Origin: Clostridium sp. BJN0013 | GTDB taxonomy: Bacteria > Bacillota > Clostridia > Clostridiales > Clostridiaceae | Direction of reading: 5' to 3' | Assembly: GCF_040939125.1 (NCBI RefSeq) | Contig: NZ_CP162495.1 | Coordinates: forward strand, 806,001 to 870,000 | Length of the DNA stretch: 64,000 nt | Shown: piece after piece, positions 47,404-63,702 of the stretch | Position numbering within the stretch: position 1 is the stretch's first letter | Layout of the letters: each line of letters begins with the position of its first letter | Notes under the pieces: generated by a model | Told to the model about the DNA's origin: nothing | What the model saw: only the letters and a program-made list of their open reading frames with translations | Databases searched by the model: none | Translations under genes and position numbers: made by a program

Positions 47404-47443
47404 TTGGAAAAGAAGCATCTTTATGGTATATTTATGGTATAAT
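47404..47443 (+). promoter_or_regulatory. Promoter of CWB2 gene, copy 2, with duplicated -10
   Basis: TTGGAA (47404-47409), 17 bases, TATATT (47427-47432), then a tandem duplication of 11 bases (TTTATGGTATA) that adds a second -10, TATAAT (47438-47443). The leader 47330-47400 keeps ATACGACTATAAAATTAT and ATAAATTTTCT from copy 1. The rest of 47285-47558 has no gene. Confidence 0.6.
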
Positions 47444-47558
47444 AATATATGTTAAATTTAAACTAAGAGTCTAAAGCTGTCATTTGGTGTGAATGGTTTA
47501 CTCACCTGACTGTAAGGAGGATGAGTTTCATTATAAAAATATAGTAGGAGGGATTTAT

Positions 47559-49876: not shown

Positions 49877-50029
49877 AAGTTATTGTACAAATATATGTTA
49901 TAATAAATAAGGAGTAATTAAAGATTTGTAATAAAAGTATGTGATTCAAAGGTGTTTGTAACTTTGCTTACAAATGAATTTAGATACTAGGATATGGTGG
50001 CAGAATTTTCAATTTTGGAGAGAAAAGAT

Positions 50030-51070
50030 ATGAAAAAATTAATAAAAAGTAAAAGAAATCTAGGCTTACTTATAATTATACTTTTAGCAGTGGCAATTTT
50101 TGCAAAACGTATTTTCTGGAATTCATCCTACAGTTCACCTGAGTACAAATTTTCAGTACAGCTTTTTGACAAAATAATTAAAGCCCAGAGTGAAGACTCT
50201 ACTGCAGAACTGACAAAAGATGAGGTAAATCAGATTATATGTCTGTACTTTAAAGAATATAGAAAAAATGATGTGGTAGTAAAATCAGTAGAGGCAGAAC
50301 TTGAAAATGACAGCATGAGGTTTTATGTACCTGTCAGCTATAAAGGACTAAATCTACTTTTGTGGTCTCAGGGCAGCATTTCCCTTGAAAATGATCATAT
50401 TAAATATACTCCTGCCTATTTTAAAGTAGGTAAAGTCACCCTGCCTAAATCCTATATTCTAAAAAAGTTGAGCCAAAAGTTAAAAAGTGGGGCAGATATT
50501 GAAGGAAACTCCATAGCAATTAATATTAAAGAACTTCCTGTAGGTATTAAGTCTATAAGTGTGAAAGATAAAAAGCTTCTGGTTACACTGGAAAAAAGAG
50601 AATTTAATATTGAAGATATATTAAAAGGAAAACTTAGTTCTATAAAAAATTTTATAGAGGATTCTTCTGCTATAAAGGAATCAAGTTCCTATACGAAAAT
50701 CAATAAAGGAAGTAATACTTCCAAAGTGAATAAAAAAAGCACAGAGAAAGATGCTGAAAGCAAAAATGATACTAGTGCATCAAGTCCAGTTTCTTCCCAA
50801 AAGCAGCAGGCACTTAATAGTGTAATAAGTGGATTAAATGCGGCTTCAGCTTCTGTCAGTACAGGGGCACAAAAGGCAGTTATATCACAGATGATATCTG
50901 TTGTAAGTAATATGAAAGACTCATCTTATAATCCATACTCAGAGGAAAGCAGTGTTAAGGCTGCTTATGGACAATTATCTCAAACTGAAAAAGCAGAATT
51001 AAAGGCTGCTGTATTTTCAAATGTAGACACGTCTCAGGTAAGTATACTGGCAGGTATGATAGGAAATTAA
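50030..51070 (+). CDS. YpmS-like membrane protein with CWB2-partner end domain
   Basis: 346 residues from ATG 50030 (GGAGAGAAAAG upstream). One N-terminal membrane helix (NLGLLIIILLAVAIFAKRIF), an outer domain of about 170 residues resembling YpmS/DUF2140 (PEYKFSVQLFDKII, LTKDEVNQIICLYFKEY, IKYTPAYFKVGKVTLPKS), a Ser/Lys linker, and an 83-residue helical end domain (YNPYSEESSVKAAYGQLSQT) that matches the end of the CWB2 proteins at 41983 and 49433. It is the last gene of the surface module and precedes the exopolysaccharide genes. Copy 1 of this gene is truncated at 43683. Confidence 0.65.
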   Translation: MKKLIKSKRNLGLLIIILLAVAIFAKRIFWNSSYSSPEYKFSVQLFDKIIKAQSEDSTAELTKDEVNQIICLYFKEYRKNDVVVKSVEAELENDSMRFYVPVSYKGLNLLLWSQGSISLENDHIKYTPAYFKVGKVTLPKSYILKKLSQKLKSGADIEGNSIAINIKELPVGIKSISVKDKKLLVTLEKREFNIEDILKGKLSSIKNFIEDSSAIKESSSYTKINKGSNTSKVNKKSTEKDAESKNDTSASSPVSSQKQQALNSVISGLNAASASVSTGAQKAVISQMISVVSNMKDSSYNPYSEESSVKAAYGQLSQTEKAELKAAVFSNVDTSQVSILAGMIGN

Positions 51071-51097
51071 TCAAAAATAAGGGGAGGAGATATACCC

Positions 51098-51784
51098 ATG
51101 CAGGAAGAAGAAATAACACTGGATCTTAGAGATTTTTACTATATATTAAAAAAGAGAAGGATGCTTATTGCAATAGTGACAGTGGTGTGTACTTTAGTGG
51201 CAGGTATTTTGAGTTTTTTCATAATAAAACCTACCTATGAGGCAACTACCACTATAATTATAGGAAAACCTGAAAGTGATGGAAAGGACAGCACTCAATA
51301 CAATGATGTAATGATGTATCAAAATTTAGTAAAAACCTATGCTAAAATTGCATCCTCCAATACTGTTATGGAAAGTACAAGCAATAAGCTGAAGGGTACT
51401 ATTGGAGTTGGGGAACTTAAGAAGAAGATTTCTGCTGCACCTCAGGAGGGTACTCAGATTTTACAAATAACGGGACAAAGTAAAGATCCTAAACAGGCTG
51501 TAAATATGGTAAATGCAGTAGTGCAGGCTTTTGTATCTGAATCTAAAAGAGTATTTCCTACAGGAGGAGATATACAGGTTATGGATAAGGTTCAATTTCC
51601 AGATAAACCTATAAAGCCTAAAAAGGCATTAAACATGGCTATTGCATTTTTTGTTGGATTGATGGCTTCTGTAGGGTTTTCCTTTATGCTGGAATGTATG
51701 GATAATACCATAAAGACAGAAGAAGATGTAGCAAGATATTTAGACATGCCTATAATAGGTATAATACCTAGAGGAGAAGTTTAG
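51098..51784 (+). CDS. Polysaccharide chain-length regulator / tyrosine-kinase modulator (Wzz, YveK type)
   Basis: A 228-residue membrane protein with two helices near the ends (about 23-44 and 180-202) and an outer domain between them. The proline-rich PDKPIKPKKALN before the second helix is the family hallmark. In firmicutes it is separate from, and activates, the cytoplasmic tyrosine kinase, which is encoded two genes on. Ribosome site GGGGAGGAGA. It opens the exopolysaccharide locus. Confidence 0.92.
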   Translation: MQEEEITLDLRDFYYILKKRRMLIAIVTVVCTLVAGILSFFIIKPTYEATTTIIIGKPESDGKDSTQYNDVMMYQNLVKTYAKIASSNTVMESTSNKLKGTIGVGELKKKISAAPQEGTQILQITGQSKDPKQAVNMVNAVVQAFVSESKRVFPTGGDIQVMDKVQFPDKPIKPKKALNMAIAFFVGLMASVGFSFMLECMDNTIKTEEDVARYLDMPIIGIIPRGEV

Positions 51785-51785
51785 A

Positions 51786-51893
51786 CAATTCACAATTGGC
51801 CATTCACAATGCACAATGAATGAAAGATGATTTTTCTACGAAAAATCTACATTAATTGTGAAATGTAAATTGTGAATTGTGAGTTGAAAAAGA
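51786..51893. repeat. Intergenic palindromic element, copy 3
   Basis: Arms built from ACAATTCACAATTGGCCATT-type repeats and the complementary AATTGTGAATTGTGAGTTG; core GATGATTTTTCTACGAAAAA. It fills the space between the stop of the preceding gene and the ribosome site (GAGGTGAAAG) of the next. Confidence 0.75.
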
Positions 51894-51906
51894 TTGAGGT
51901 GAAAGT

Positions 51907-52674
51907 ATGGTAGATATACACAGCCACATACTTCCAGGGGTAGATGATGGTTCAAAATCCATGGATGAAACCTTGAAAATGCTTAAACTTGCGGAATTGG
52001 ATGGAGTAAAAACCATAGTGGCAACTCCACATTTTTATAGGGGATACTATGAAAATAGTTACGAGGACATAATGAAGTTAGGTCAGCAGGTGAGAAGTGC
52101 AGCAAAGAAAGCAAATATAGCTGTAAATATTGTTTTGGGTCAGGAAGTATTTTTAGATAAATATATCCTGAAGGATTATAAATTGGGGAAAGTAGGATGT
52201 ATTGAAGGAACTGATTATATTCTGGTAGAGTTTCCTATGACTGTGCTGCTAAAGGATGCTTTAGATATTATATATGAACTTCAAGTTATGGGAATACGGC
52301 CAATTTTAGCTCATCCTGAAAGGTATAAGTATATTATAGATAAGCCTTCTAAAATAAATGAATTTTTAGATGAAAGATGTTTGTTACAAATAAATACCGG
52401 AAGCATAAAAGGGATTTTTGGAAAAAAAGTAAAAAGTACTGCAGAAATTTTAATAAGCAGCGGAGTTTGCAGTTTTATAGCTTCTGATGCTCATTCTACA
52501 ACAGGGAGAAGTCCGGGTATTAGTGAGGCCCTTAAAATTGCTGCTGAATTTAAAAGCGGTATATTTGAAATGCTACAAAGTAATTGTGAAAGATTGTTAA
52601 AAAATCAATTTATAGAATTTGTTAGTGAAAGAATAAAAGAAAGAAAAAGTATATTTAAGTTTTTAAAAAAATGA
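51907..52674 (+). CDS. Tyrosine-protein phosphatase, PHP type (CpsB/YwqE)
   Basis: A 255-residue metal-dependent phosphatase. PHP-fold metal ligands are visible in MVDIHSHILPGVDDG, ATPHFYRGYY, LGQEVFLD, PILAHPERYKYI and FIASDAHSTTGRSP. It removes phosphate from the tyrosine tail of the kinase encoded next, which regulates polysaccharide export. Ribosome site GAGGTGAAAG. Operon with the genes on either side. Confidence 0.93.
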   Translation: MVDIHSHILPGVDDGSKSMDETLKMLKLAELDGVKTIVATPHFYRGYYENSYEDIMKLGQQVRSAAKKANIAVNIVLGQEVFLDKYILKDYKLGKVGCIEGTDYILVEFPMTVLLKDALDIIYELQVMGIRPILAHPERYKYIIDKPSKINEFLDERCLLQINTGSIKGIFGKKVKSTAEILISSGVCSFIASDAHSTTGRSPGISEALKIAAEFKSGIFEMLQSNCERLLKNQFIEFVSERIKERKSIFKFLKK

Positions 52675-52708
52675 GAGTATTATTTGAGATATAAATGGAG
52701 TGAAGATA

Positions 52709-53434
52709 ATGGAAAAACCCGATATTGTTACCGTAAAGAATCCTAAAGTTCCTATTGCAGAAGCTTATAGAACTTTAAGAACCAATATTCAGTTCTCTTC
52801 TTTTGATAAGAAGATACAGACCATAATGCTGACAAGCTCCGTGCCGGGAGAAGGAAAATCTACAACCTGTTCTAATCTGGCAGTAGTTATGGCAGAGTCA
52901 GGTGCCAGAACTATTCTAGTAGACTGCGATGAGAGAAAGCCAAGGTTACATAAAATATTTTTTGTTTCAAATGAAAAAGGACTATCCGATGTTTTAGCAG
53001 GAAAAGTTGAATTTGAAGAGGTTGTCAAAGAAACTGTAATAGAAAATTTAAAGCTTTTAACTTCAGGGACACGTCCCCCAAACCCTTCGGAACTTTTGGC
53101 TTCTAAAAAAATGGAGACTTTTTTAGAAAGCTTAAAGGATAAATTTGAATACATAATAATAGACACCCCACCTGTAGTGGCGGTAACAGATGCCCAGCTT
53201 TTAGCGCGTTGTGCAGATGGATGTATTCTTGTAGTGGCATCTTCTCAGGTAGAAAGGGAGGCTGCAGTGCGGGCAAAAGAGCTTTTGTTAAAAGTAAATG
53301 CCAATATATTAGGTATTGTTTTAAATAAGCTGGAAGTAAGGGAAAAGGGTTATTATGGTTATTATTATCAGTACTACTATAATGATGGGCACAGTAAAAC
53401 TAATGACCATAAGAAGGAAAATAAAAAGAAATAA
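52709..53434 (+). CDS. Bacterial tyrosine kinase (CpsD/YwqD type)
   Basis: A 241-residue P-loop kinase: Walker A PGEGKSTTCSN, Walker A' RTILVDCDERKP, Walker B YIIIDTPPV, and a C-terminal tyrosine cluster (KGYYGYYYQYYYNDG) that is the autophosphorylation site. Together with the chain-length regulator and PHP phosphatase it forms the standard control triad of exopolysaccharide synthesis. ATG 52709 with TGGAG upstream is preferred over an in-frame GTG at 52700. A terminator follows. Confidence 0.93.
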   Translation: MEKPDIVTVKNPKVPIAEAYRTLRTNIQFSSFDKKIQTIMLTSSVPGEGKSTTCSNLAVVMAESGARTILVDCDERKPRLHKIFFVSNEKGLSDVLAGKVEFEEVVKETVIENLKLLTSGTRPPNPSELLASKKMETFLESLKDKFEYIIIDTPPVVAVTDAQLLARCADGCILVVASSQVEREAAVRAKELLLKVNANILGIVLNKLEVREKGYYGYYYQYYYNDGHSKTNDHKKENKKK

Positions 53435-53444
53435 TAATGCATGC

Positions 53445-53485
53445 AAAAAGGTAAAGGTTTTATTGTACTTTACCTTTTTTATTTT
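53445..53485 (+). terminator. Terminator after the tyrosine kinase gene
   Basis: AAAAAGGTAAAG pairs with CTTTACCTTTTT (53468-53479), followed by TATTTTTT. Confidence 0.9.
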
Positions 53486-53537
53486 TTGCCTATTTTTAAA
53501 AAGCTGCATATATACTATGTGAAGGGAGATGATTTAA

Positions 53538-53762
53538 ATGGCTGCAAGTTCAACCTTACTGGAAACTTCTATAATATTAAGCTACAATGACGGCCTAGAT
53601 GCACAGGGGAAAGAAATAATTAAGAAGCAAAGTTTTTCAAATGTAAAAATAACTGCTCCTATCCAGGATATCTACGATGTTGCTAAGGAAATAGAAAAGC
53701 TTCTTGGAAAGACAATAGATGAAATTGTAAGGCAGGATGAAAGTGCTATAACAAATGTTTAA
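53538..53762 (+). CDS. DUF1659 family small protein
   Basis: A 74-residue protein that fits DUF1659: NDGLDAQGKEIIKKQSFSNV followed by APIQDIYDVAKEIEKLLGK. These small proteins usually occur beside a DUF2922 protein, as here, and often near YvrJ and a sigma factor. Function unknown. Ribosome site AAGGGAGATG. Confidence 0.82.
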   Translation: MAASSTLLETSIILSYNDGLDAQGKEIIKKQSFSNVKITAPIQDIYDVAKEIEKLLGKTIDEIVRQDESAITNV

Positions 53763-53905
53763 TACAATGCACAATGCACAATTAACAATTCACAATTAAT
53801 GATGATTTTTCTCTGAAAAATCTATAATATAGATTTTCTGAAGCGTAGCGGAAGAAAATCCTCCACAATTGTGAATTGTGAATCGTAAACTGTGAATTGA
53901 AAAAA
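53763..53905. repeat. Intergenic palindromic element, copy 4
   Basis: Arms CAATGCACAATGCACAATTA and the complementary CACAATTGTGAATTGTGAAT; core TGATTTTTCTCTGAAAAATC, ATAGATTTTCTGAAGCG and GGAAGAAAATCCTCC. Begins directly after the stop of the DUF1659 gene and ends at the ribosome site of the DUF2922 gene. Confidence 0.8.
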
Positions 53906-53920
53906 AGGGTGGTGAAAATC

Positions 53921-54139
53921 ATGAGTAGGGCACTAGTTATGAGTTTCTTAACTGAAGAAGGCAAAAAGACTTCTATAAGGGTTTCTAATGTGAAAGACAA
54001 TTTAACGGACCAGGAAGTAAAAACTGCCATGGAAATAATTATTGCAAAAAATATATTTACCTCAAAGAATGGGGATTTACAAGCCATAGATTCAGCTCAT
54101 ATATTAGAAAGTTCAACTACGGAACTCGAAGTAAAATAA
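53921..54139 (+). CDS. DUF2922 family small protein
   Basis: A 72-residue protein starting MSRALVMSFLTEEGKKTSIR and containing VKDNLTDQEVKTAMEIIIAKNIF, as in DUF2922. It pairs with the DUF1659 gene upstream. The ATG at 53921 behind GGGTGGTG is preferred over an upstream in-frame TTG. Function unknown. Confidence 0.8.
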   Translation: MSRALVMSFLTEEGKKTSIRVSNVKDNLTDQEVKTAMEIIIAKNIFTSKNGDLQAIDSAHILESSTTELEVK

Positions 54140-54141
54140 TA

Positions 54142-54280
54142 TAATTGACAGTTGACAATTGAGAATTGACAATTGATGAGGATTTTTCTACGAAAAATCT
54201 ATATTATAGATTTTCTGGAGCACAGCGGAGGAAAATCCACCGAAATTGTCAATTGTACATTGTCAATTGTCAATTGAATA
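54142..54280. repeat. Intergenic palindromic element, copy 5
   Basis: Arms TTGACAGTTGACAATTGAGA and the complementary TTGTCAATTGTCAATTGAAT; core GAGGATTTTTCTACGAAAAA, TAGATTTTCTGGAGC and GGAGGAAAATCC. Nearly the same core as copy 4 but with different arms. Begins right after the DUF2922 stop codon. Confidence 0.8.
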
Positions 54281-54390
54281 AATATGCACAAAAATTGCAA
54301 TTTATAATACAATATTAGAAAACAAAAAATAGTTAAATGTAAAATTACTAAAGAATTCACAGGATATAAATTTTATGGGAGGACAAAATA

Positions 54391-55038
54391 ATGTGTGGTT
54401 TCAAAAGCGGAACTGTAATGGACAAACGCCATGAAATCAAAGAAAATACAAACTATAATTTACCCAAAATATCCCGCCTTGAAAATTTACTGAAGAAGGC
54501 AAAAAGTGGCGACAAAATCGCAGTAGAGGAAATTTGTAAAAAATTTAATGGAATGATTATAAGTCTATGCAGATTTATTTATATAAATGGATACACCATG
54601 GAAGACATGATACAAGAAGGAAGAGTTTCCCTTATAAAGGCAATTCACAGTTATGATTTAAATTCAAAATATCCTTTTCCTGCTTATGCTAAAAGTGCTG
54701 TAAAGAAAAATTTCCACTGGAAGATAAGGAATAATACAAGAAAACCCAGATGCTGCAGTATTCATAGTTGTAACAGCCAGGGAAATGAACTCTCAGACAT
54801 GATACCATCTACAGAAAATATTGAAGAGGATTTTATAAAAAAGCAGTATAAAATCAAGCTCCGGGAAGCCATTGAAAAGCTTCCTGAAGAAAAAAGAGAT
54901 ATAATAATCTGGTATCATATACTGGAAAAGGACTTAAAAGAATATGCGATAAGAAAGGGAATAGCTTATAGAACAGCAGTTTATAAAAAGAAAAAAGCTC
55001 TTGACAGTTTGAAGGAGTATTTAAAAGATTATGTATAG
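54391..55038 (+). CDS. Sigma-70-family RNA polymerase sigma factor
   Basis: A 215-residue sigma factor: region 2 about residues 30-110 (GYTMEDMIQEGRVSLIKAIHSYD is the -10 recognition and core-binding part) and a region 4 helix-turn-helix at the end (LEKDLKEYAIRKGIAYRTAVYKKKKAL). It is compact and lacks regions 1 and 3. The link with DUF1659/DUF2922 genes recurs in clostridia, but the regulon is unknown; the tandem promoters just downstream look like sigma-A, not a special class. Ribosome site GGGAGGAC. Confidence 0.88.
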   Translation: MCGFKSGTVMDKRHEIKENTNYNLPKISRLENLLKKAKSGDKIAVEEICKKFNGMIISLCRFIYINGYTMEDMIQEGRVSLIKAIHSYDLNSKYPFPAYAKSAVKKNFHWKIRNNTRKPRCCSIHSCNSQGNELSDMIPSTENIEEDFIKKQYKIKLREAIEKLPEEKRDIIIWYHILEKDLKEYAIRKGIAYRTAVYKKKKALDSLKEYLKDYV

Positions 55039-55039
55039 T

Positions 55040-55216
55040 TTTGGAAGTTGAGAGTTAAGAGTTAAAATTTAAGAGTAAATGAAGATTTTTCTACCAAAAA
55101 TCTAAAATTAAGAAGTATTGAAACAAAGTTTTCAATGCCTCTATATTTTTCCAAATTTTCTGGAGTACAGCTCGAGAAAATTATTCCATAATTGTAAATT
55201 GTAAACTGAATATAGT
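55040..55216. repeat. Intergenic palindromic element, copy 6
   Basis: Arms GAGAGTTAAGAGTTAAAATT and (diverged) ATAATTGTAAATTGTAAACT; core GAAGATTTTTCTACCAAAAA, GTATTGAAACAAAGTTTTCA, TTTTCTGGAGTACAGCTCGA. It begins two bases after the sigma-factor stop and shares the GAAACAAAGTTT insert with copy 1. Confidence 0.7.
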
Positions 55217-55285
55217 TGGTCTAAGTTACCAGATATCTTATTTATTAAAAAGCTTTAAGGTTGTTGGATAAAAGTATATAATAAA

Positions 55286-55725
55286 AACAATTATGATATT
55301 ATAATAATAACAATAAATATTACGTGAATATTGTAAAAAATATGGTTTTAATCTTGTTTATTATCAATTATGATATTATAATAATGACAATTAATATTAT
55401 GTGAATATTGTATAAAACATGATTTTAATTTTGTTTGTTAACAATTATGATATTATAATAATAATAATGAATATTATGTGAATATTGTAAAAAATATGGT
55501 TTTAATCTTGCTTATTACCAATTATGGTATTATAATAATGGCAATGAATTTATATGAATATTGTAAAAAATATGGTTTTAATCTTGCTTATTACCAATTA
55601 TGGTATTATAATAATGGCAATGAATATTATATAATATTGTAAAAAATATGGTTTTAATCTTGCTTATTACCAATTATGGTATTATAATAATGGCAATGAA
55701 TATTATGTGAATATTGCAAAAAATG
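55286..55725 (+). repeat. Six tandem 77-bp repeats carrying promoters
   Basis: The TATAAT hexamer recurs at 55300, 55377, 55454, 55531, 55607 and 55683, a period of 76-77 bases. Each unit continues AATATTGTAAAAAATATGGT and TTTAATCTTG. In units 2-6 TTGTTT or TTGCTT stands exactly 17 bases before TATAAT; in unit 1 that -35 is lost. The last three units are almost identical, so the array was recently expanded or homogenised. It is non-coding and leads directly into the exopolysaccharide biosynthesis genes. Confidence 0.9.
55660..55688 (+). promoter_or_regulatory. Sigma-A promoter nearest the sugar transferase gene
   Basis: TTGCTT (55660-55665), 17 bases, TATAAT (55683-55688), in the last unit of the tandem array. 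The -10 is consensus and carries an upstream TGG (TGGTATTATAAT). It is about 60 bases before the TTG start at 55747. Confidence 0.75.
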
Positions 55726-55746
55726 ATTTATTAGGAGGGATAACTA

Positions 55747-56415
55747 TTGACGGAACTGCAAAGTAGAGTTATTGAAGTATATGTAGAAAATATGGAAAAA
55801 TACAAAAAAGGTGTTATTTACATTTTTATTAAAAGAATGACAGATATAATATTTTCCATTTTGGGAATTATAGTATTTGCCCCTGTTATGATGATTATTG
55901 CAGTTGCTATTAAGCTGGATTCTAAAGGAGCTGTTATATTTTCTCAAGAAAGAGTGGGGTTAAATGGAAGGCTCTTTAAGATGTACAAGTTTAGGTCTAT
56001 GGTGGAAAATGCTGAGGATCTTTTGGACGAGCTTAAAGACAAAAATGAAATGACAGGTCCTATGTTTAAGATGAAAGAGGACCCCAGAGTTACCAGAGTA
56101 GGAAAATTTATAAGAAAGACAAGTCTTGATGAACTTCCCCAATTGTTTAATGTGATTAAAGGAGAGATGTCACTGGTAGGCCCAAGGCCTAACCTTCCCA
56201 GAGAAGTTGTAAAGTTTACCCGGAAGCAAAAGATTAAATTATTGGCCAAGCCTGGATTAACTTGTTACTGGCAGGTTATGGGCAGAAGCAATGTAGATTT
56301 CGAAAGATGGATGGAACTGGATATTAAATACATAGAAATGAGAAATACTTTGCTTGATTTTAAGCTTATCTTTAAAACTTTGGGAGTGTTTTTTGGGGAT
56401 GAGAATGCGGCGTAG
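55747..56415 (+). CDS. Undecaprenyl-phosphate sugar-1-phosphate transferase
   Basis: A 222-residue bacterial sugar transferase (WbaP/EpsL/PglC group) that puts the first sugar phosphate on the lipid carrier. One N-terminal membrane segment (FSILGIIVFAPVMMIIAVAI), then KLDSKGAVIFSQERVGLNG, KMYKFRSM, the catalytic region RKTSLDELPQLFNVIKGEMSLVGPRP and PGLTCYWQVMGR. TTG start at 55747 behind AGGAGGGATAACTA. First gene of the polysaccharide assembly operon, under the tandem promoters. Confidence 0.94.
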   Translation: MTELQSRVIEVYVENMEKYKKGVIYIFIKRMTDIIFSILGIIVFAPVMMIIAVAIKLDSKGAVIFSQERVGLNGRLFKMYKFRSMVENAEDLLDELKDKNEMTGPMFKMKEDPRVTRVGKFIRKTSLDELPQLFNVIKGEMSLVGPRPNLPREVVKFTRKQKIKLLAKPGLTCYWQVMGRSNVDFERWMELDIKYIEMRNTLLDFKLIFKTLGVFFGDENAA

Positions 56416-56542
56416 CATGCGCTTTGTATGATATTGGTGTGGAATTGAAAATGAAAATGTGGAAAATTGCACTCGAAACTTTTATTGAAAGAATACGGAT
56501 GTAAGTAGTTAAAAATAATTTCAAGGTTGAAAGGGTGTAAAA

Positions 56543-57895
56543 ATGATGAAAATTGTAATTGCAGGAACTGGTTATGTGGGCTTAGTAACAGCTGCTTGTT
56601 TATCTCATTTAGGTCATAATATAACTTGTGTTGACATAGATAAAAAAAAGGTTGAACTTATGAGACAAGGAATATGTCCAATATATGAACCTGGGTTAGA
56701 GGAAATACTTAAAAAAAATTATGAAGAAGGCAGATTAAATTTTACAATTGATTGTAAATCAGCATATAAAGATGCCGATATAATATTTATAGGGGTGAGT
56801 ACCCCAGAAAGAGAAGATGGTTCGGCTAATTTAGATTATGTATATGATGTAGCAGAACAAATAGCTGAAAATGTAGAGAAAAATTGTTTGGTTGTTGTTA
56901 AGTCAACAGTTCCAATAGGAACTAATGATAAAGTAGAAGAATTTTTAAGGGAGCATCTAAAAAATGATGTTTACATAGAAGTGGCTTCAAATCCAGAATT
57001 TTTAGCTCAAGGAACAGCAGTCAAAGATACATTATATGCTAATAGAATAGTAATAGGAGTTGAATCAAATAAAGCTAGAATTATTCTAGAAAAGGTATAT
57101 GAGAGATTTAATCAACCAATAGTTGTAACTAATAGGAGAAGTGCTGAGATGATAAAGTATGCTTCTAATGACTTTTTAGCATTAAAGATATCATTTATAA
57201 ATGAAATTGCCAATTTTTGCGAAATTGTTGGAGCAGATATTGAGGATGTAACAAAAGGAATGAGCTATGATCCAAGAATAGGAGATAAATTTTTAAAAGC
57301 AGGTATCGGGTATGGCGGTTCCTGTTTCCCAAAGGATACTAAAGCACTTCACTGGCTTGCAAATGATAACGGGTATGAACTAAAGACAATAAAGGCAACC
57401 ATAGAAGTAAACCAAAACCAAAAATATAAACTCTTTAGAGCAGCCAAGCAGAGATTTGGAAGTTTAAAAGGACTAAAGGCAGCGGTACTTGGATTGACTT
57501 TTAAACCGGGAACAGACGATTTAAGAGAGGCAGCTTCCATACCTAATGTAAGAAGGCTGCTAGAAGAAGGAGCAGAAATTGCTGCATATGATCCTGTTGG
57601 AGAAAAAAATTTTAAAAAATTATTTCCAAGTAAAATCATATATGGGAAAACTGTAGAAGAAACTTTAAAAGATGCAGATGTAGCGTTTATATTCACTGAA
57701 TGGGATGAAATTAAGTCTTTAGACTTAAGTGTATATGAGAAATTAATGAATATCCCTATTATATTTGATGGGAGAAATTGTTATAAAATTAGTGAAGTAG
57801 AAAAAAAAGCTGTAGAATATCATTCTGTTGGAAGAGAAGCTGTTTTGAATTTAGTGAAAGATGTTAAAAGTGAAGTGGCAGCTACGATTATTTAA
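56543..57895 (+). CDS. UDP-glucose 6-dehydrogenase
   Basis: A 450-residue NAD-dependent enzyme that makes UDP-glucuronate. N-terminal Rossmann motif GTGYVGLVTAACLSHLGH, catalytic Cys261 in GIGYGGSCFPKDTKAL, and the C-terminal UDP-binding domain (VLGLTFKPGTDDLREAAS). Full length for the family. Ribosome site AAAGGGTG; ATG 56543 or 56546. A remnant of another such gene lies at 62412. Supplies an acidic sugar for the polysaccharide. Confidence 0.94.
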   Translation: MMKIVIAGTGYVGLVTAACLSHLGHNITCVDIDKKKVELMRQGICPIYEPGLEEILKKNYEEGRLNFTIDCKSAYKDADIIFIGVSTPEREDGSANLDYVYDVAEQIAENVEKNCLVVVKSTVPIGTNDKVEEFLREHLKNDVYIEVASNPEFLAQGTAVKDTLYANRIVIGVESNKARIILEKVYERFNQPIVVTNRRSAEMIKYASNDFLALKISFINEIANFCEIVGADIEDVTKGMSYDPRIGDKFLKAGIGYGGSCFPKDTKALHWLANDNGYELKTIKATIEVNQNQKYKLFRAAKQRFGSLKGLKAAVLGLTFKPGTDDLREAASIPNVRRLLEEGAEIAAYDPVGEKNFKKLFPSKIIYGKTVEETLKDADVAFIFTEWDEIKSLDLSVYEKLMNIPIIFDGRNCYKISEVEKKAVEYHSVGREAVLNLVKDVKSEVAATII

Positions 57896-57929
57896 AATAA
57901 ATTCGGTTTAGAGTGTAAAGAAGGGATGA

Positions 57930-59018
57930 ATGATTTTGAAAAAGGTATTAATAACTGGAATAACGGGACAGGATGGTTCCTATTTAACAGAATTTTTACT
58001 AGAAAAGGGATATGAAGTACATGGAATAATTAGAAGAGCTAGTACCTTCAATACTAAGAGAATAGACCATCTATTTGAAAATCCTGAAATAGGAAATAGA
58101 CATCTTTTTCTTCATCATGGTGATCTAACGGATTCAAGTAACTTAAATAGATTAATAGAAAAAGTTCAGCCAGATGAAATATACAATTTAGCAGCTCAAA
58201 GTCATGTACAGGTTTCCTTTGAAATTCCAGAGTATACTGCCGAAACAGATGGCATAGGTACACTGAGAATACTTGATGCTATAAAGGAAAGTGGACTAAA
58301 GTGTAAGTTTTATCAGGCATCTACTTCAGAACTATTTGGAGGACTTCCAGAAACAGTACCCCAAAGTGAAAAAACTCCTTTTTATCCCAAAAGTCCTTAT
58401 GGAGCAGCTAAACTTTACTCTTACTGGATCACAGTTAATTATAGAGAAGCTTATAACCTATTTGCATGTAATGGAATATTATTTAATCACGAATCTCCAA
58501 GAAGAGGAGAAACCTTTGTTACAAGAAAAATAACAAGGGCAGTAGCTAGTATAATGGCAGGAAAGCAGGAAAAATTGTCATTAGGGAGCTTAGATGCTAA
58601 AAGAGATTGGGGATATGCAGGGGATTATGTAGAGGCTATGTGGCTTATACTTCAGCAGGATAAACCCCAGGATTACGTTATAGCTACCAATGAAACTCAT
58701 ACTGTAAGAGAGTTTGTAGAATTGTCTTTTAAAGAAGTAGGAATAGATATTGAATGGGGAGGTACTAAAGTTGAGGAAAAAGGTTACGATAAAGCTACTG
58801 GAAAAGTTTTAGTTGATATAAATCCAAAATATTTTAGACCTGCAGAAGTTGATCTTTTATGGGGAGATTGTTCAAAGGCTGAAAGAGAACTTGGATGGGA
58901 AAGAAAAGTTGATTTTCCTGAGTTAGTAAAAATGATGGTAGATGCTGATATGAGACAAATTGCTGGGGTAAGCACTGAAGAATTCTTAGCACAAGATGAA
59001 GTTGCAATAACAAAATAA
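57930..59018 (+). CDS. gmd: GDP-mannose 4,6-dehydratase
   Basis: A 362-residue short-chain-dehydrogenase-type enzyme that turns GDP-mannose into GDP-4-keto-6-deoxymannose. NADP-binding [24 protein letters not shown], the active-site STSELFG and [10 protein letters not shown] (YxxxK), and the hallmark [19 protein letters not shown] are all present. It is the first step to GDP-fucose; the second, Fcl, is two genes downstream. Start ATG 57930, with TTG 57936 as an alternative. Confidence 0.95.
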
Positions 59019-59020
59019 CA

Positions 59021-60097
59021 ATGAAAACTATAGCATTTTATATATCTAATCATGGTTTTGGACATGCATCTAGAAATATACCCATTATTCATGAATTATT
59101 AACTAAATCTAGAGAAATAGAGATTATTATAAAAAGCGGTAAAAATCAAATTCATTTTATGCAGCAACTTTTAGAGGAATTTTCTCCCAGAGTTGCTTTC
59201 TATGAAAAAGATGTAGATTTAGGGTTAATTTTAAAAAAAGGTAAAATAGAAGTAGATAAAATTAAATTACAATATGAGTTAGAAAAGTTCATAAATTCAT
59301 GGGATGATAAGATAAGAAAAGAAAATACTTTTTTAATAAATAATGGAGTGAATTTAGTAATTTCAGATATAGCTTCTTGGATATTTAAATGTTGTAAGGG
59401 GCTAAGTATTAAATCCATCCTTATATCCAACTTTACATGGGTTGAAATATATAAGGAATTATTTAATAATGATATATATAAAACATATTTACAATATTAT
59501 AAGATGGCTGATGAAGTTTGGTTTTATCCTTTGTATGGATATGTAAAAGATTATATAGAAAATCCAAAATATCTAGGATTATGTTGTAGAGAATTTAATG
59601 ATGAAAATGTACAATCCATAAAAAGAGTGCATAAGCAGCCTATAGTTTTTGTAAGCGTAGGTAGATCAGTACATTTAAAGGAGGCTATAGATATAGAAGG
59701 ATTACCTTATGATTTTATTTATACAGAAGGTGTAAATCTAAAAGGTAAAAATGCATACAAGCTTTCAATAGATACATTAAATACCCAAGATTACATTAAG
59801 GCATCGGACTATGTCATTACTAAAGCAGGTTGGGGAACAGTAGCAGAAGCTATATGTGCCAAGAAACCAATGTTAGTTATAGAAAGAAATGAAATTGCAG
59901 AGGATAGAAAAACATTAGAAAATTTAATAAAGCTAGATATAGTCTTGCCTATTAAACAAGGTGAGTTTAATAAAGATAATATTGGTACGCTATTAGCAAG
60001 GGTAAAAGAAAAGGCGTTTAATTATAATAATTTACCTAAAATATATAATAATTCAGTACATTATATAGCCAGTGACATATTAAGGTGTTTGTCTTAA
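59021..60097 (+). CDS. GT-B-type glycosyltransferase (MurG-like)
   Basis: A 358-residue enzyme with an N-terminal motif FYISNHGFGHASRN and a C-terminal nucleotide-sugar site ASDYVITKAGWGTVAEAICAKKPMLVI, as in MurG/GT28-like transferases. It starts two bases after the gmd stop with no clear ribosome site of its own, so it is likely translated by coupling. Donor and acceptor are unknown; its place between gmd and the GDP-fucose synthase gene makes a deoxyhexose donor possible. Confidence 0.75.
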   Translation: MKTIAFYISNHGFGHASRNIPIIHELLTKSREIEIIIKSGKNQIHFMQQLLEEFSPRVAFYEKDVDLGLILKKGKIEVDKIKLQYELEKFINSWDDKIRKENTFLINNGVNLVISDIASWIFKCCKGLSIKSILISNFTWVEIYKELFNNDIYKTYLQYYKMADEVWFYPLYGYVKDYIENPKYLGLCCREFNDENVQSIKRVHKQPIVFVSVGRSVHLKEAIDIEGLPYDFIYTEGVNLKGKNAYKLSIDTLNTQDYIKASDYVITKAGWGTVAEAICAKKPMLVIERNEIAEDRKTLENLIKLDIVLPIKQGEFNKDNIGTLLARVKEKAFNYNNLPKIYNNSVHYIASDILRCLS

Positions 60098-60115
60098 CTT
60101 TAAGGGGTGAAGAAA

Positions 60116-61051
60116 GTGAAAAAGGACAGTAAAATATATGTAGCAGGACATAGAGGATTGGTTGGTTCTGCTATAGTTAGAAAGTTAAAAGAAAAGGGTT
60201 ATACAAATATAATTAGGAAGACTCACAGTGAACTTGATTTAACAAACTCCACTGAAGTTGAAGAATTTTTTAAAATAGAAAGACCAGAATATGTATTCTT
60301 AGCAGCAGCTAAAGTAGGAGGAATTCTTGCAAATAGTACTTATCCAGCAGATTTTATATATGAAAACTTACAAATACAAAATAATGTCATAGGAATGGCT
60401 CATAAGTATGAAGTGAAGAAGTTGATGTTCCTTGGAAGTTCATGCATTTATCCTAAAATGTGTCCACAACCTATAAAGGAAGAGTATCTGCTTTCAGGAT
60501 ATTTGGAAGAAACAAATGAAGCCTATGCATTGGCTAAAATATCTGGACTTAAAATGTGTCAATTCTTTAATAAACAGTATGGTACAAACTATATAAGTGT
60601 AATGCCTACAAATTTATATGGACCTTATGATAACTTTCACTTGGAAAATTCTCATGTAATGCCAGCATTAATTAGAAGATTTCATGAAGCAAAAGAAAAC
60701 AATGCTCCAGAAGTTGTAGTATGGGGAAGTGGAACTCCGCTAAGAGAGTTCTTATATTCTGAGGATATGGCAGATGCATGTATTTATTTGATGGAAACAT
60801 ATGAAGGAAATGATTTCTTTAATATAGGCACTGGTAAGGAGATTAGTATAAGAGGGCTCGCAGAACTGGTTAAGGAAGTTATGAGGTATGAGGGAAAATT
60901 GGTATTTGATACTAGTAAACCAGATGGAACTCCTAGAAAGCTTCTTGATGTAAGCAGACTTGAGGCAGCAGGATGGACTTATAAGACTGAGCTTAGAAAT
61001 GGGGTCGAGAAGGCTTATAAGTGGTTTAGAGAGAACTATATTAATAAGTAG
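60116..61051 (+). CDS. fcl: GDP-L-fucose synthase
   Basis: A 311-residue epimerase/reductase that completes GDP-L-fucose from the Gmd product. NADP motif [23 protein letters not shown], active-site GSSCIYPK and the Tyr/Lys pair in [15 protein letters not shown], then [16 protein letters not shown] start at 60116 with AAGGGGTG upstream is preferred over the GTG at 60107, which overlaps that site. With Gmd it shows the polymer or a side group contains fucose or a related deoxyhexose. Confidence 0.95.
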
Positions 61052-61063
61052 AAGGGATTACCT

Positions 61064-62317
61064 ATGAAGGATGTAAAGAAAAAGCTATTAGTATATGCTC
61101 ATTATTATTACCCTGATGTTGCTTCAACTGGTCAGATATTAAAGGAATTATGTGAAGGTATGAAGGATAAATTTGATATTACAGTAATTTGTGTAGTACC
61201 TAGTTACAGTGGAAAAATAGATGAGAAATATAAAGTAGATAAATACTACTACGAGAATATTAGTGGGGTAAAAGTTATAAGGGTAAGAGTGCCTGAATTT
61301 ACTAAAGATAATAAAAAGAGTAGAATTAAAAATCTTTTAGCATATTCCTTTAGAGCAGTATGGGCAACATTTAAAGTTAAAGAACAAGACTATATTTTTA
61401 CAATATCCCAGCCTCCAATAATCGGTGGAGTTTTGGGTACAATTGGAAAATGGTTTAAGGGTGGAAAGTTAATTTACAATATACAAGACTTTAATCCAGA
61501 GCAAACAATAGCAGTAGGATATAGTAAAAATAAAATTATACTTAATATGGCAATGTGGGTAGATAGATTTTCTTGCAGAAGATCAGATAAAATAATAGTA
61601 GTTGGAAGAGATATGCAAAAAACTTTAAGGGATAGATTTAAAAATAGAAATGTTCCAAAGAATGTTTTTATCAACAACTGGGTTGATGAAAAAGAAATAT
61701 ATCCTTTACCAGATGATAATGAAAAGGTATTGGCTTTTAAAAAGAACTATGGTTTAGAAAACAGAATAGTAGTAATGTATTCAGGAAATATAGGACTTTA
61801 CTATGATTTAGAAAATTTGATTAAGGTTATTGGAAGATTTAAAGATAGAACTGATGTAGTTTTTGCTTTTGTGGGAGATGGAAGTAAAAAGAAAGATATA
61901 GAAGATTACGTTATTGAACATAAGCTGACAAATGTTGTATTTATTCCGTATCAGGACAAAGCTGATCTGATTTACAGTCTTAATGCGGCTGATTGCCAGT
62001 GGTGTGTGAATGCTAAGGGGATTAAGGGTGTTTCCGTTCCTTCTAAGCTATATGGTATTATGGCAGTGGGCAAGCTGGTCATCGGTGTTATGGAAGAAGG
62101 TGCTGAAGCAAGACTCATTATGGAAGAGACACAGTGCGGTTTAGTATGCGAACCGGGAGATTATGCGGCTGTAGAAGCCAATTTACGATGGTTTATCGAC
62201 CACGCGGGGGATCCTAGGCAGAAGGCCATGGGCATGCGTGGACACGAGTATCTGATCAAAAATTTGACCAAGGATGTCAGTGTCAAGAAGTACATAGATG
62301 AGATTTTGAGCTGCTGA
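61064..62317 (+). CDS. Family 4 glycosyltransferase (WcaI-like), mosaic
   Basis: A 417-residue GT-B enzyme: N-terminal YAHYYYPDVASTGQILKELC, middle VVMYSGNIGLYYDLENL, and donor-site VPSKLYGIMAVGKLVIGV followed by EEGAEARLIMEETQCG. From about 61950 to the stop the base composition and codon choice change abruptly to more G/C (for example GACCACGCGGGGGATCCTAG near 62198), while the first 880 bases match the AT-rich neighbours. The frame is intact, so the gene looks like a recombination chimera whose 3' end came with the downstream DNA. Confidence 0.87.
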   Translation: MKDVKKKLLVYAHYYYPDVASTGQILKELCEGMKDKFDITVICVVPSYSGKIDEKYKVDKYYYENISGVKVIRVRVPEFTKDNKKSRIKNLLAYSFRAVWATFKVKEQDYIFTISQPPIIGGVLGTIGKWFKGGKLIYNIQDFNPEQTIAVGYSKNKIILNMAMWVDRFSCRRSDKIIVVGRDMQKTLRDRFKNRNVPKNVFINNWVDEKEIYPLPDDNEKVLAFKKNYGLENRIVVMYSGNIGLYYDLENLIKVIGRFKDRTDVVFAFVGDGSKKKDIEDYVIEHKLTNVVFIPYQDKADLIYSLNAADCQWCVNAKGIKGVSVPSKLYGIMAVGKLVIGVMEEGAEARLIMEETQCGLVCEPGDYAAVEANLRWFIDHAGDPRQKAMGMRGHEYLIKNLTKDVSVKKYIDEILSC

Positions 62318-62411
62318 TCCTGTGGTCAAGGCAAGTAGGTTTAAAGGACTAGAACAACGGTAGGTTACCTTAGATGTTTGGAATATACCCTGAAAATCGG
62401 CAAAACATGAT

Positions 62412-62551
62412 ATTGGCAAAAAGGGTAAGGTTGTTAACGAGATGGAGGTATTTAAGTCTACTTTCGATGTTATTGTGGCAACTGCTTCAATGTAGAACTG
62501 GCAGATGTTATGGATAAGGTTTATACTAGAGATTTGTATTTCAGAGATTAA
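62412..62551 (+). pseudogene. UDP-glucose dehydrogenase 3' remnant
   Basis: The translation IGKKGKVVNEMEVFKSTFDV then, one frame over, ELADVMDKVYTRDLYFRD-stop matches the usual C-terminus of a second UDP-glucose dehydrogenase type (..DVI.ANR....L.DV.DKVYTRDLF.RD). A frameshift lies at about 62490-62500 and the upstream part of the gene is missing. The intact dehydrogenase at 56543 has a different C-terminus, so this came from another locus or strain. The rest of 62318-62571 has no gene. Confidence 0.65.
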
Positions 62552-62571
62552 AGGAAGTTAAGGGGAACTGG

Positions 62572-63702
62572 ATGATGGATTTGTATACATATAAAAAGAA
62601 TTGTTCAGGATGTACTGCATGCGTGAATGTTTGCCCACAAAATGCAATAGTGATGCAAAAGGATTCAGAAGGATTTCTATATCCAGAAATTGTTTGGGAT
62701 AAATGCATGAATTGTAGGCTTTGTCAGAAAGTTTGTGGGTTTAAAACACCGTCTGAAAAGTATCCGCTGAAGTTTTATGCGGTTAAAAATAAAAGCACGG
62801 AGATTATACACACTAGCTCTTCGGGTGGCATGTTTTCAGCAATTTCTGATTATATCTTAAATTTGGGCGGTGTTGTATGTGGTGCTGCTTATAACTATGA
62901 GCAGCATATTGTTGAACATGTGTTTTGTAGGACGCGAGAAGAGCGGGACAGACTGAAAGGTTCTAAATATCTGCAGAGTGAATTACATGATTCGTTTGCT
63001 CAGATTGAAAACTGTTTAAAAGCAGGAGAAACAGTACTCTTTGTTGGTACTCCATGCCAGGTATCTGGCCTTCTGAATTTTTTAGAACAAAAACGCTTAG
63101 ATTTGACAACACTTTATACTTGTGACCTTGTTTGTCATGGTGTACCAAGTCCAAAAATCTGGAAAGACTATATTACAGCAATTGAGAAAAAACAGCATAT
63201 AAAAGTAGATTATGTGACATTTAAAGATAAAAGAAACGGTTGGGAACACCCGGTAATAATTGTAAAAAATGGGTCGCGAGAAATCCAACTGGATGCTATT
63301 AAGAGGGTCTTGTTCGGCGATGTAGCTATGAGGCCATCGTGCCATAATTGCAAATTCACAAATCTTAATCGTGTTGGAGATATAACAATCGGTGATTTTT
63401 GGGGAATAAGAGGTAAACATCCAGAGTTCTATGATAAAAATGGTGTTTCTCTTGTTTTAGTCAATACTGGACAAGGAATGGAATTATTTCAAAAAATTAG
63501 AAATTATATTGATATTTGTGAAAGCAATGAAGCAGAATGTGAGCAACCAAATTTGAAATCGCCTACGAAAATGTCAGATAGACGTCAAATATTTTGGAAA
63601 GATTATGAGAATACACAAATTTGTAAATTGATTAATAAATACGGATGCATTTTTTTGGCAGATTTACTTTGTTTAAAGGTTAAAAAAATTTTAAAAAGAT
63701 AA
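62572..63702 (+). CDS. Ferredoxin-like / coenzyme F420 hydrogenase beta-subunit-type protein of polysaccharide clusters
   Basis: A 376-residue protein with two N-terminal 4Fe-4S motifs (CSGCTACVNVCP and CMNCRLCQKVC), then the FrhB-type N- and C-terminal domains (SSSGGMFSAISDYIL, GTPCQVSGLLNFL, CHGVPSPKIWKDYI, RVGDITIGDFWGI). Such proteins occur often in polysaccharide loci next to pyruvyl transferases; the redox reaction is unknown. F420 itself is not implied. It follows the ugd remnant and belongs to the compositionally different right-hand segment. Confidence 0.85.
   Translation: MMDLYTYKKNCSGCTACVNVCPQNAIVMQKDSEGFLYPEIVWDKCMNCRLCQKVCGFKTPSEKYPLKFYAVKNKSTEIIHTSSSGGMFSAISDYILNLGGVVCGAAYNYEQHIVEHVFCRTREERDRLKGSKYLQSELHDSFAQIENCLKAGETVLFVGTPCQVSGLLNFLEQKRLDLTTLYTCDLVCHGVPSPKIWKDYITAIEKKQHIKVDYVTFKDKRNGWEHPVIIVKNGSREIQLDAIKRVLFGDVAMRPSCHNCKFTNLNRVGDITIGDFWGIRGKHPEFYDKNGVSLVLVNTGQGMELFQKIRNYIDICESNEAECEQPNLKSPTKMSDRRQIFWKDYENTQICKLINKYGCIFLADLLCLKVKKILKR

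Follow-up and report, generated by a model that had tools for sequence, protein, structure and literature searches.

The tandem repeat at 55288-55724 of the window (the whole 64-kb stretch of DNA analyzed here, 806,001-870,000 in the 4.10-Mb single-contig genome of Clostridium sp. BJN0013) is, in our judgment, likely a promoter tandem repeat, whose number of units would set the transcription of the polysaccharide genes that follow it; we infer the links that lead from the sequence to transcription and variation. The array is possibly phase-variable, a property deduced from repeat homology, because it is known from one genome only (the collection searched has one genome per species). In the proposed mechanism, an ordinary sigma-A-type promoter, which precedes the sugar-transferase/polysaccharide genes of the genus, would have been duplicated in tandem in one lineage. 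Each 77-bp unit would comprise (i) an A/T-rich upstream stretch, (ii) a −35 element, (iii) a 17-bp spacer, (iv) a −10 element, and (v) approximately the first 25 transcribed bases. Transcription towards the gene at 55747 would begin in several units. These multiple initiation sites would add up, with output increasing as units are added until it levels off, and the unit number would be altered by RecA-type recombination or by replication slippage among the last units, which are nearly identical.

Units and promoter cores of the array

Tandem Repeats Finder described the array with a period of 77, 5.7 copies, 91% matches, and a score of 692; the second-best tandem array in the window scored just 60. 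The first-pass annotation had reported six direct repeats of 76-77 bp on the same strand, each with a TATAAT, and this was borne out: the TATAAT hexamers start at 55300, 55377, 55454, 55531, 55607, and 55683, with spacings of 77, 77, 77, 76, and 76 bp. Measured from −35 to −35, the unit lengths are 77, 77, 77, 76, and 76 bp, and then 77 bp for the last, which was measured to the ribosome-binding site.

All of the units lie on the + strand. Unit 1 (55288-55353) has its TATAAT at 55300 and lacks a correctly spaced −35 element, the place of which is occupied by the flanking TATAATAAAA, including another TATAAT (55277). Units 2 (55354-55430) and 3 (55431-55507) read TTGTTT-N17-TATAAT; units 4 (55508-55583) and 5 (55584-55659), of 76 bp each, and unit 6 (55660-55736) read TTGCTT-N17-TATAAT. 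Unit 6 takes in leader sequence and the first bases of the AGGAGG ribosome-binding site; the repeat proper stops at 55724, 22 bp before the transferase start codon at 55747. On the other side, the left flank (55200-55287, + strand), with the extra TATAAT at 55277, is similar in the relative G004, which has no array; the local alignment matches in 207 of 302 columns over 55200-55479 and is, by eye, densest before ~55290. By sequence, TTG-N17-TATAAT cores are thus present in five of the six units, namely units 2-6, where TTGTTT or TTGCTT stands exactly 17 bp 5' of TATAAT, as the earlier count of five had it; their promoter activity is predicted, and unit 1 fails this test for a complete promoter.

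The same annotation called these promoters near-consensus, which overstates the match. Set against the sigma-A pattern of TTGACA and TATAAT 16-18 bp apart, the −10 element matches at 6/6 positions with a spacing of 17, but the −35 element matches TTGACA at only 3/6 positions and falls below the promoter-scan threshold. Because of this half match, a scan asking for 4/6 cannot report the array sites; it found 96 sites, compared with 84.4 expected from shuffles, and among the 60 matches listed of these 96, eight on the minus strand and one on the plus strand lie inside the array. In several units, minus-strand promoter-like matches outscore the plus-strand cores (10 vs 9 of 12), and a minus-strand motif built from the array matches occurred in 12/79 of the relatives' upstream regions vs 6/79 when that motif was counted on the opposite strand. 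Given these scores and counts, the array may also carry a minus-strand signal. Since the −35 element is only half a match, we tested the promoter by comparison with relatives.

Identity among units 1-3 is 82-88%, as it is between units 1-3 and units 4-5, and units 4 and 5 share 97%. Unit 6 differs from each of units 4 and 5 at two positions in the first 57 columns (counted on the alignment), in agreement with the earlier description of the last three units as almost identical; its full-length identity is only 86%, because it runs into the ribosome-binding site. By eye, the repeat is still faintly visible towards that site, and promoter and leader may therefore have been amplified as one piece. 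Copies one unit apart share an exact run of up to 74 bases (offset 76), and copies two units apart share one of up to 69 bases (offset 152); such runs between the last units make the slippage or recombination proposed by the first-pass annotation plausible. From these identities, the array looks like an older one with a young expansion at its gene-proximal end. It is not wholly recent or freely turning over, because the older units differ by 12-18%.

This divergence of 12-18% is also what a neutral expansion would allow, in which slippage duplicated AT-rich DNA, unit 6 alone works, and the rest form a passive minisatellite; the G+C content of the array, 17.6%, likewise fits this explanation, which we nonetheless consider unlikely. 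Against it, TTG, TATAAT, and the 17-bp distance between them are unchanged throughout units 2-6, where 0/9 columns of the two motifs vary vs 22/77 columns overall, although the statistics are weak (probability by chance, 0.04; 0.13 when unit 6 is left out). There is no indel between the −35 and −10 elements, both indel columns lying 3' of the −10 element.

Helical phasing, spacer dyads, and leader folding

Another possibility is that the repeats are regulator-binding sites (predicted), with only the gene-adjacent promoter mattering for transcription. One example of a candidate operator element is a short spacer dyad, which reads ACCA-ATTA-TGGT in units 4-6 and ATCA-ATTA-TGAT in unit 2; another is ATGTGAATATTG. 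In favor of this explanation, both arms of the dyad differ, by eye, between unit 2 and units 4-6, and spacer dyads of other sequence are found, also by eye, in G008 (ACCG/CGGT) and G005 (GCAAT/ATTGC). However, one of the four dyad pairs is broken in units 1 and 3, no such dyad was seen by eye in the other six promoters of the genus, and short dyads are expected at this G+C content. The operator argument of the first-pass annotation, that the period is close to whole helical turns, did not hold: 76-77 bp correspond to 7.2-7.5 turns (at 10.3-10.6 bp per turn), and helical phasing fails. The candidate dyad therefore does not supply the conserved, helically phased motif in each unit that characterizes an operator or iteron array, and we regard an operator array as distinctly improbable.

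The repeats could instead act in RNA, as a structured leader or a small-RNA array working through hairpins, attenuation, or mRNA stability. Imperfect inverted repeats 3' of the −10 element are visible by eye in the units, and the unit 2 leader has a somewhat better fold than its shuffled versions (z −1.63). In contrast, folding did not exceed that of shuffled sequences for the leaders of the other five units (z 0.21 to 0.81) or for the entire 436-nt leader (z 0.23), and an Rfam search over 50000-60000 gave two matches only (E 0.38 and 0.97), both to eukaryotic families, outside the array, and rejected. An action in RNA is thus very improbable.

A single putative promoter precedes the transferase gene in relatives

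For the favored reading, that of a duplicated promoter, we turned to the loci of relatives, for which the best 80 of 278 relatives were kept. In the promoter count, 91 loci, less four that were too short and seven duplicates, gave 80 with the window and 79 without it (locus L074 was retained despite a failed frame check). The genus set, as grouped, contained 13 genomes, including that of the window, and takes in C. ljungdahlii, C. ragsdalei, C. luticellarii, and C. tyrobutyricum.

The transferase was matched at E≤1e-60 in 8/13 genus genomes, the window's included. In all seven of the other transferase-bearing genomes, exactly one TTG-N17-TATAAT lies within 420 bases 5' of the matched stretch, at a distance of 68 to 371 bases, and GGTATTATAAT is common to G007, G009, G010, G011, and units 4-6. 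The second transferase copies in G006, G007, and G009 have TTGTTT-N17-TATTAT instead. At L137, L138, and L139 (G007, G009, and G006, respectively), the transferase promoter lies ~370 bases upstream, and the resulting long leader is similar in appearance in all three.

Over the 79 nonredundant loci, some of which come from close relatives and are therefore not independent, the spacing between TTG and TATAAT was 17 bp in 16, 16 bp in four, and 18 bp in two; the 21 other spacings had a mean of 1.6 and a maximum of 3 over the same loci, and the minus strand gave one locus (1/79) at 17 bp. Because of this peak and the single promoter in the relatives, a plus-strand promoter is, as far as these sequences indicate, a common feature of transferase loci, with one copy as the usual state where it is found. 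On the same two grounds, a conserved promoter seems to have been amplified in this lineage specifically to give the array. The claim of the first-pass annotation that the promoter units lie on the coding strand before polysaccharide genes stood up in our comparison, with a putative single-copy promoter in the relatives.

No tandem repeat with a period of at least 30 and with promoter matches in two or more units was found at the other transferase loci, an absence that a neutral expansion would also accommodate. Among the candidates that we rejected as promoter arrays, L022 has a 282-bp repeat far 5' of the transferase with only one promoter match, and the repeats at L050 and L067 are without any promoter match.

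Genes around the array

The genes on the + strand begin with those for two CWB2 (S-layer-like) proteins (47493 and 49433) and for a protein with a DUF2140 match below the cut-off, and continue with Wzz, CpsB/CapC, a tyrosine autokinase, DUF2922, a sigma-70-family factor, the array, and the sugar transferase (55747). The gene of the sigma-70-family factor (54391-55038, + strand; 215 aa; Pfam and NCBIfam), directly upstream of the array, has HTH_16 and Sigma70_r2 domains above the Pfam cut-off and Sigma70_r4_2 just under it, and it is matched at E≤1e-10 in 13/13 genus genomes, its own included. The first gene 3' of the array (55747-56415, + strand) encodes a bacterial sugar transferase (Bac_transf; Pfam 1.1e-68); its start codon is TTG, and the C. 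ljungdahlii match (L015) begins at residue 1. The codirectional genes downstream (56543-63702, + strand) encode UDP-glucose/GDP-mannose dehydrogenase, GDP-mannose dehydratase, glycosyltransferases, an NAD-dependent epimerase, and an FrhB-like protein. The polysaccharide genes run past the end of the window, ~6.9 kb further, to a Polysacc_synt (flippase-like) protein (L147:6438-7856), with more genes beyond. In a terminator scan, none was found on the + strand between the sigma gene and the array, and the three + strand matches 3' of the array all lie inside open reading frames.

Three further features of this region were observed. At 47404-47432, 5' of the S-layer-like gene at 47493, there is a promoter-like TTGGAA-N17-TATATT with a TG before the −10 element, and its TTGGAA is the same hexamer as in an array of another genome, G001. 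Between the DUF2922 and sigma genes (54143-54276), two short 7-bp tandem repeats (AATTGAC and AATTGTC) are complementary and could form a long hairpin. Downstream of the window, within the polysaccharide region, a group II intron reverse transcriptase-like protein was recognized by eye (L147 10663-12144).

Arrays in this and other genomes

The array appears to be the only one in its genome: of 151 first-look candidates, 40 were scored, and a single match reached E≤0.001. A genome-wide pattern scan found five exact promoter sites, all within the array, and eight more with three mismatches each; the control gave two. There was no match to the array in the plasmid and phage collections and, for one 30-base piece of it, no exact match in the viral contigs. 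A DNA search across the genus returned 13 weak matches (E 5e-5 to 9e-4; 28-83 bases) in 10/12 other genomes; these AT-rich matches were not taken as homologs.

We surveyed further genomes for sets of three promoters in phase, the TATAAT period being 51-81 bp. This pattern occurred in 14/206 genomes of the family, where the backward-read control gave four matches in four genomes, and in 11/391 genomes of a class sample, nine of them new, where the control gave six matches in three genomes; the two surveys share 19 genomes, for a total of 578, of which 23 have the pattern. Four overlapping matches were found in the window genome only, compared with at most two in any other genome of the family. 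Clearly repeated units occur in four genomes: the window genome, G001, G337, and G381. In the family survey, unit identity was 0.88 in G000 (the window genome) and 0.82 in G001; the other 12 family matches (0.64-0.74) were read as unrelated neighboring promoters or chance, among which G087 (0.74) is borderline, because it overlaps a 32-bp tandem repeat of 2.7 copies. In the class sample, the matches in G337 (0.99) and G381 (0.89) are genuine tandem repeats with a candidate promoter role only, and the other seven new matches have unit identities of 0.58-0.70. The G337 repeat (L167), of 66 bp and 8.5 copies, has a long inner dyad, with TTG-N17-TATAAT in phase in some units, and is probably not a promoter array.

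The G001 array (L146 10226-10335, minus strand; L155), a second promoter array within the genus, has three TATAAT exactly 52 bp apart, two of them with TTGGAA-N17, and lies directly after the best match of the sigma gene (37% identity) and before a gene that was judged S-layer-like by eye. The presence of another promoter array at such a position argues against a neutral expansion. That two arrays lie 3' of the best matches of the sigma gene in 13 genomes, a pattern noticed after the fact and counting two cases, is suggestive. It could be taken further: the interval 3' of the sigma gene would be a hot spot of promoter amplification for cell-surface genes, where a six-unit array upstream of polysaccharide genes and a three-unit array upstream of an S-layer gene arose independently, and the number of units would be a heritable, reversible, sigma-linked dial on coat output. 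We hold this extension to be rather unlikely.

Comparison with known systems

In searches of an open-licence library, we found no earlier description of a clostridial promoter array. The closest parallels are the promoter tandem repeats of M. tuberculosis, including dop (57 bp), lpdA-glpD2 (58 bp), and cysG-efpA (54-56 bp); across 93 clinical isolates and laboratory strains, the dop, lpdA, and cysG repeats differ in copy number, those of dop and lpdA vary within one culture, and LpdA is, as cited there, up 12.5-fold with four promoter copies vs one (PMC12817950). Like the present array, these repeats consist of promoter segments of 50-80 bp, copied head to tail immediately 5' of a gene; their copy number is proposed to set transcription, as we propose here, and one of them is linked to biofilm (PMC12817950). 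Unlike them, the array is known from one genome, of a different phylum; it consists of six units, each longer than theirs and with AT-rich cores of sigma-A type, and polysaccharide genes follow it. As judged by its sequence, the array probably adds one more case to the known promoter tandem repeats exemplified by dop, lpdA, and cysG.

Within our own surveys, the G001 array is similar in that tandem TTG-N17-TATAAT units lie directly 3' of the best sigma match and before a surface gene; it differs in promoter sequence, period, and gene and consists of two full promoters and a third TATAAT. The E. coli kps capsule cluster is alike in having three serial promoters before capsule genes (PMC5738388). 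In our reading, those are probably distinct promoters, not repeat copies. In the synthetic MCPtac promoter clusters of E. coli, which likewise place tandem core promoters on one gene, output climbs stepwise up to five copies, the count of −35-bearing units in the array; MCPtac is engineered, whereas the array is natural, with diverged units (PMC3293061). The array would thus be a natural, unit-countable counterpart of engineered multicore promoters, its five −35-bearing cores falling where the synthetic series levels off. If our reading is true, phase variation by promoter copy number, as established for M. tuberculosis, would reach the AT-rich clostridia and extracellular polysaccharide.
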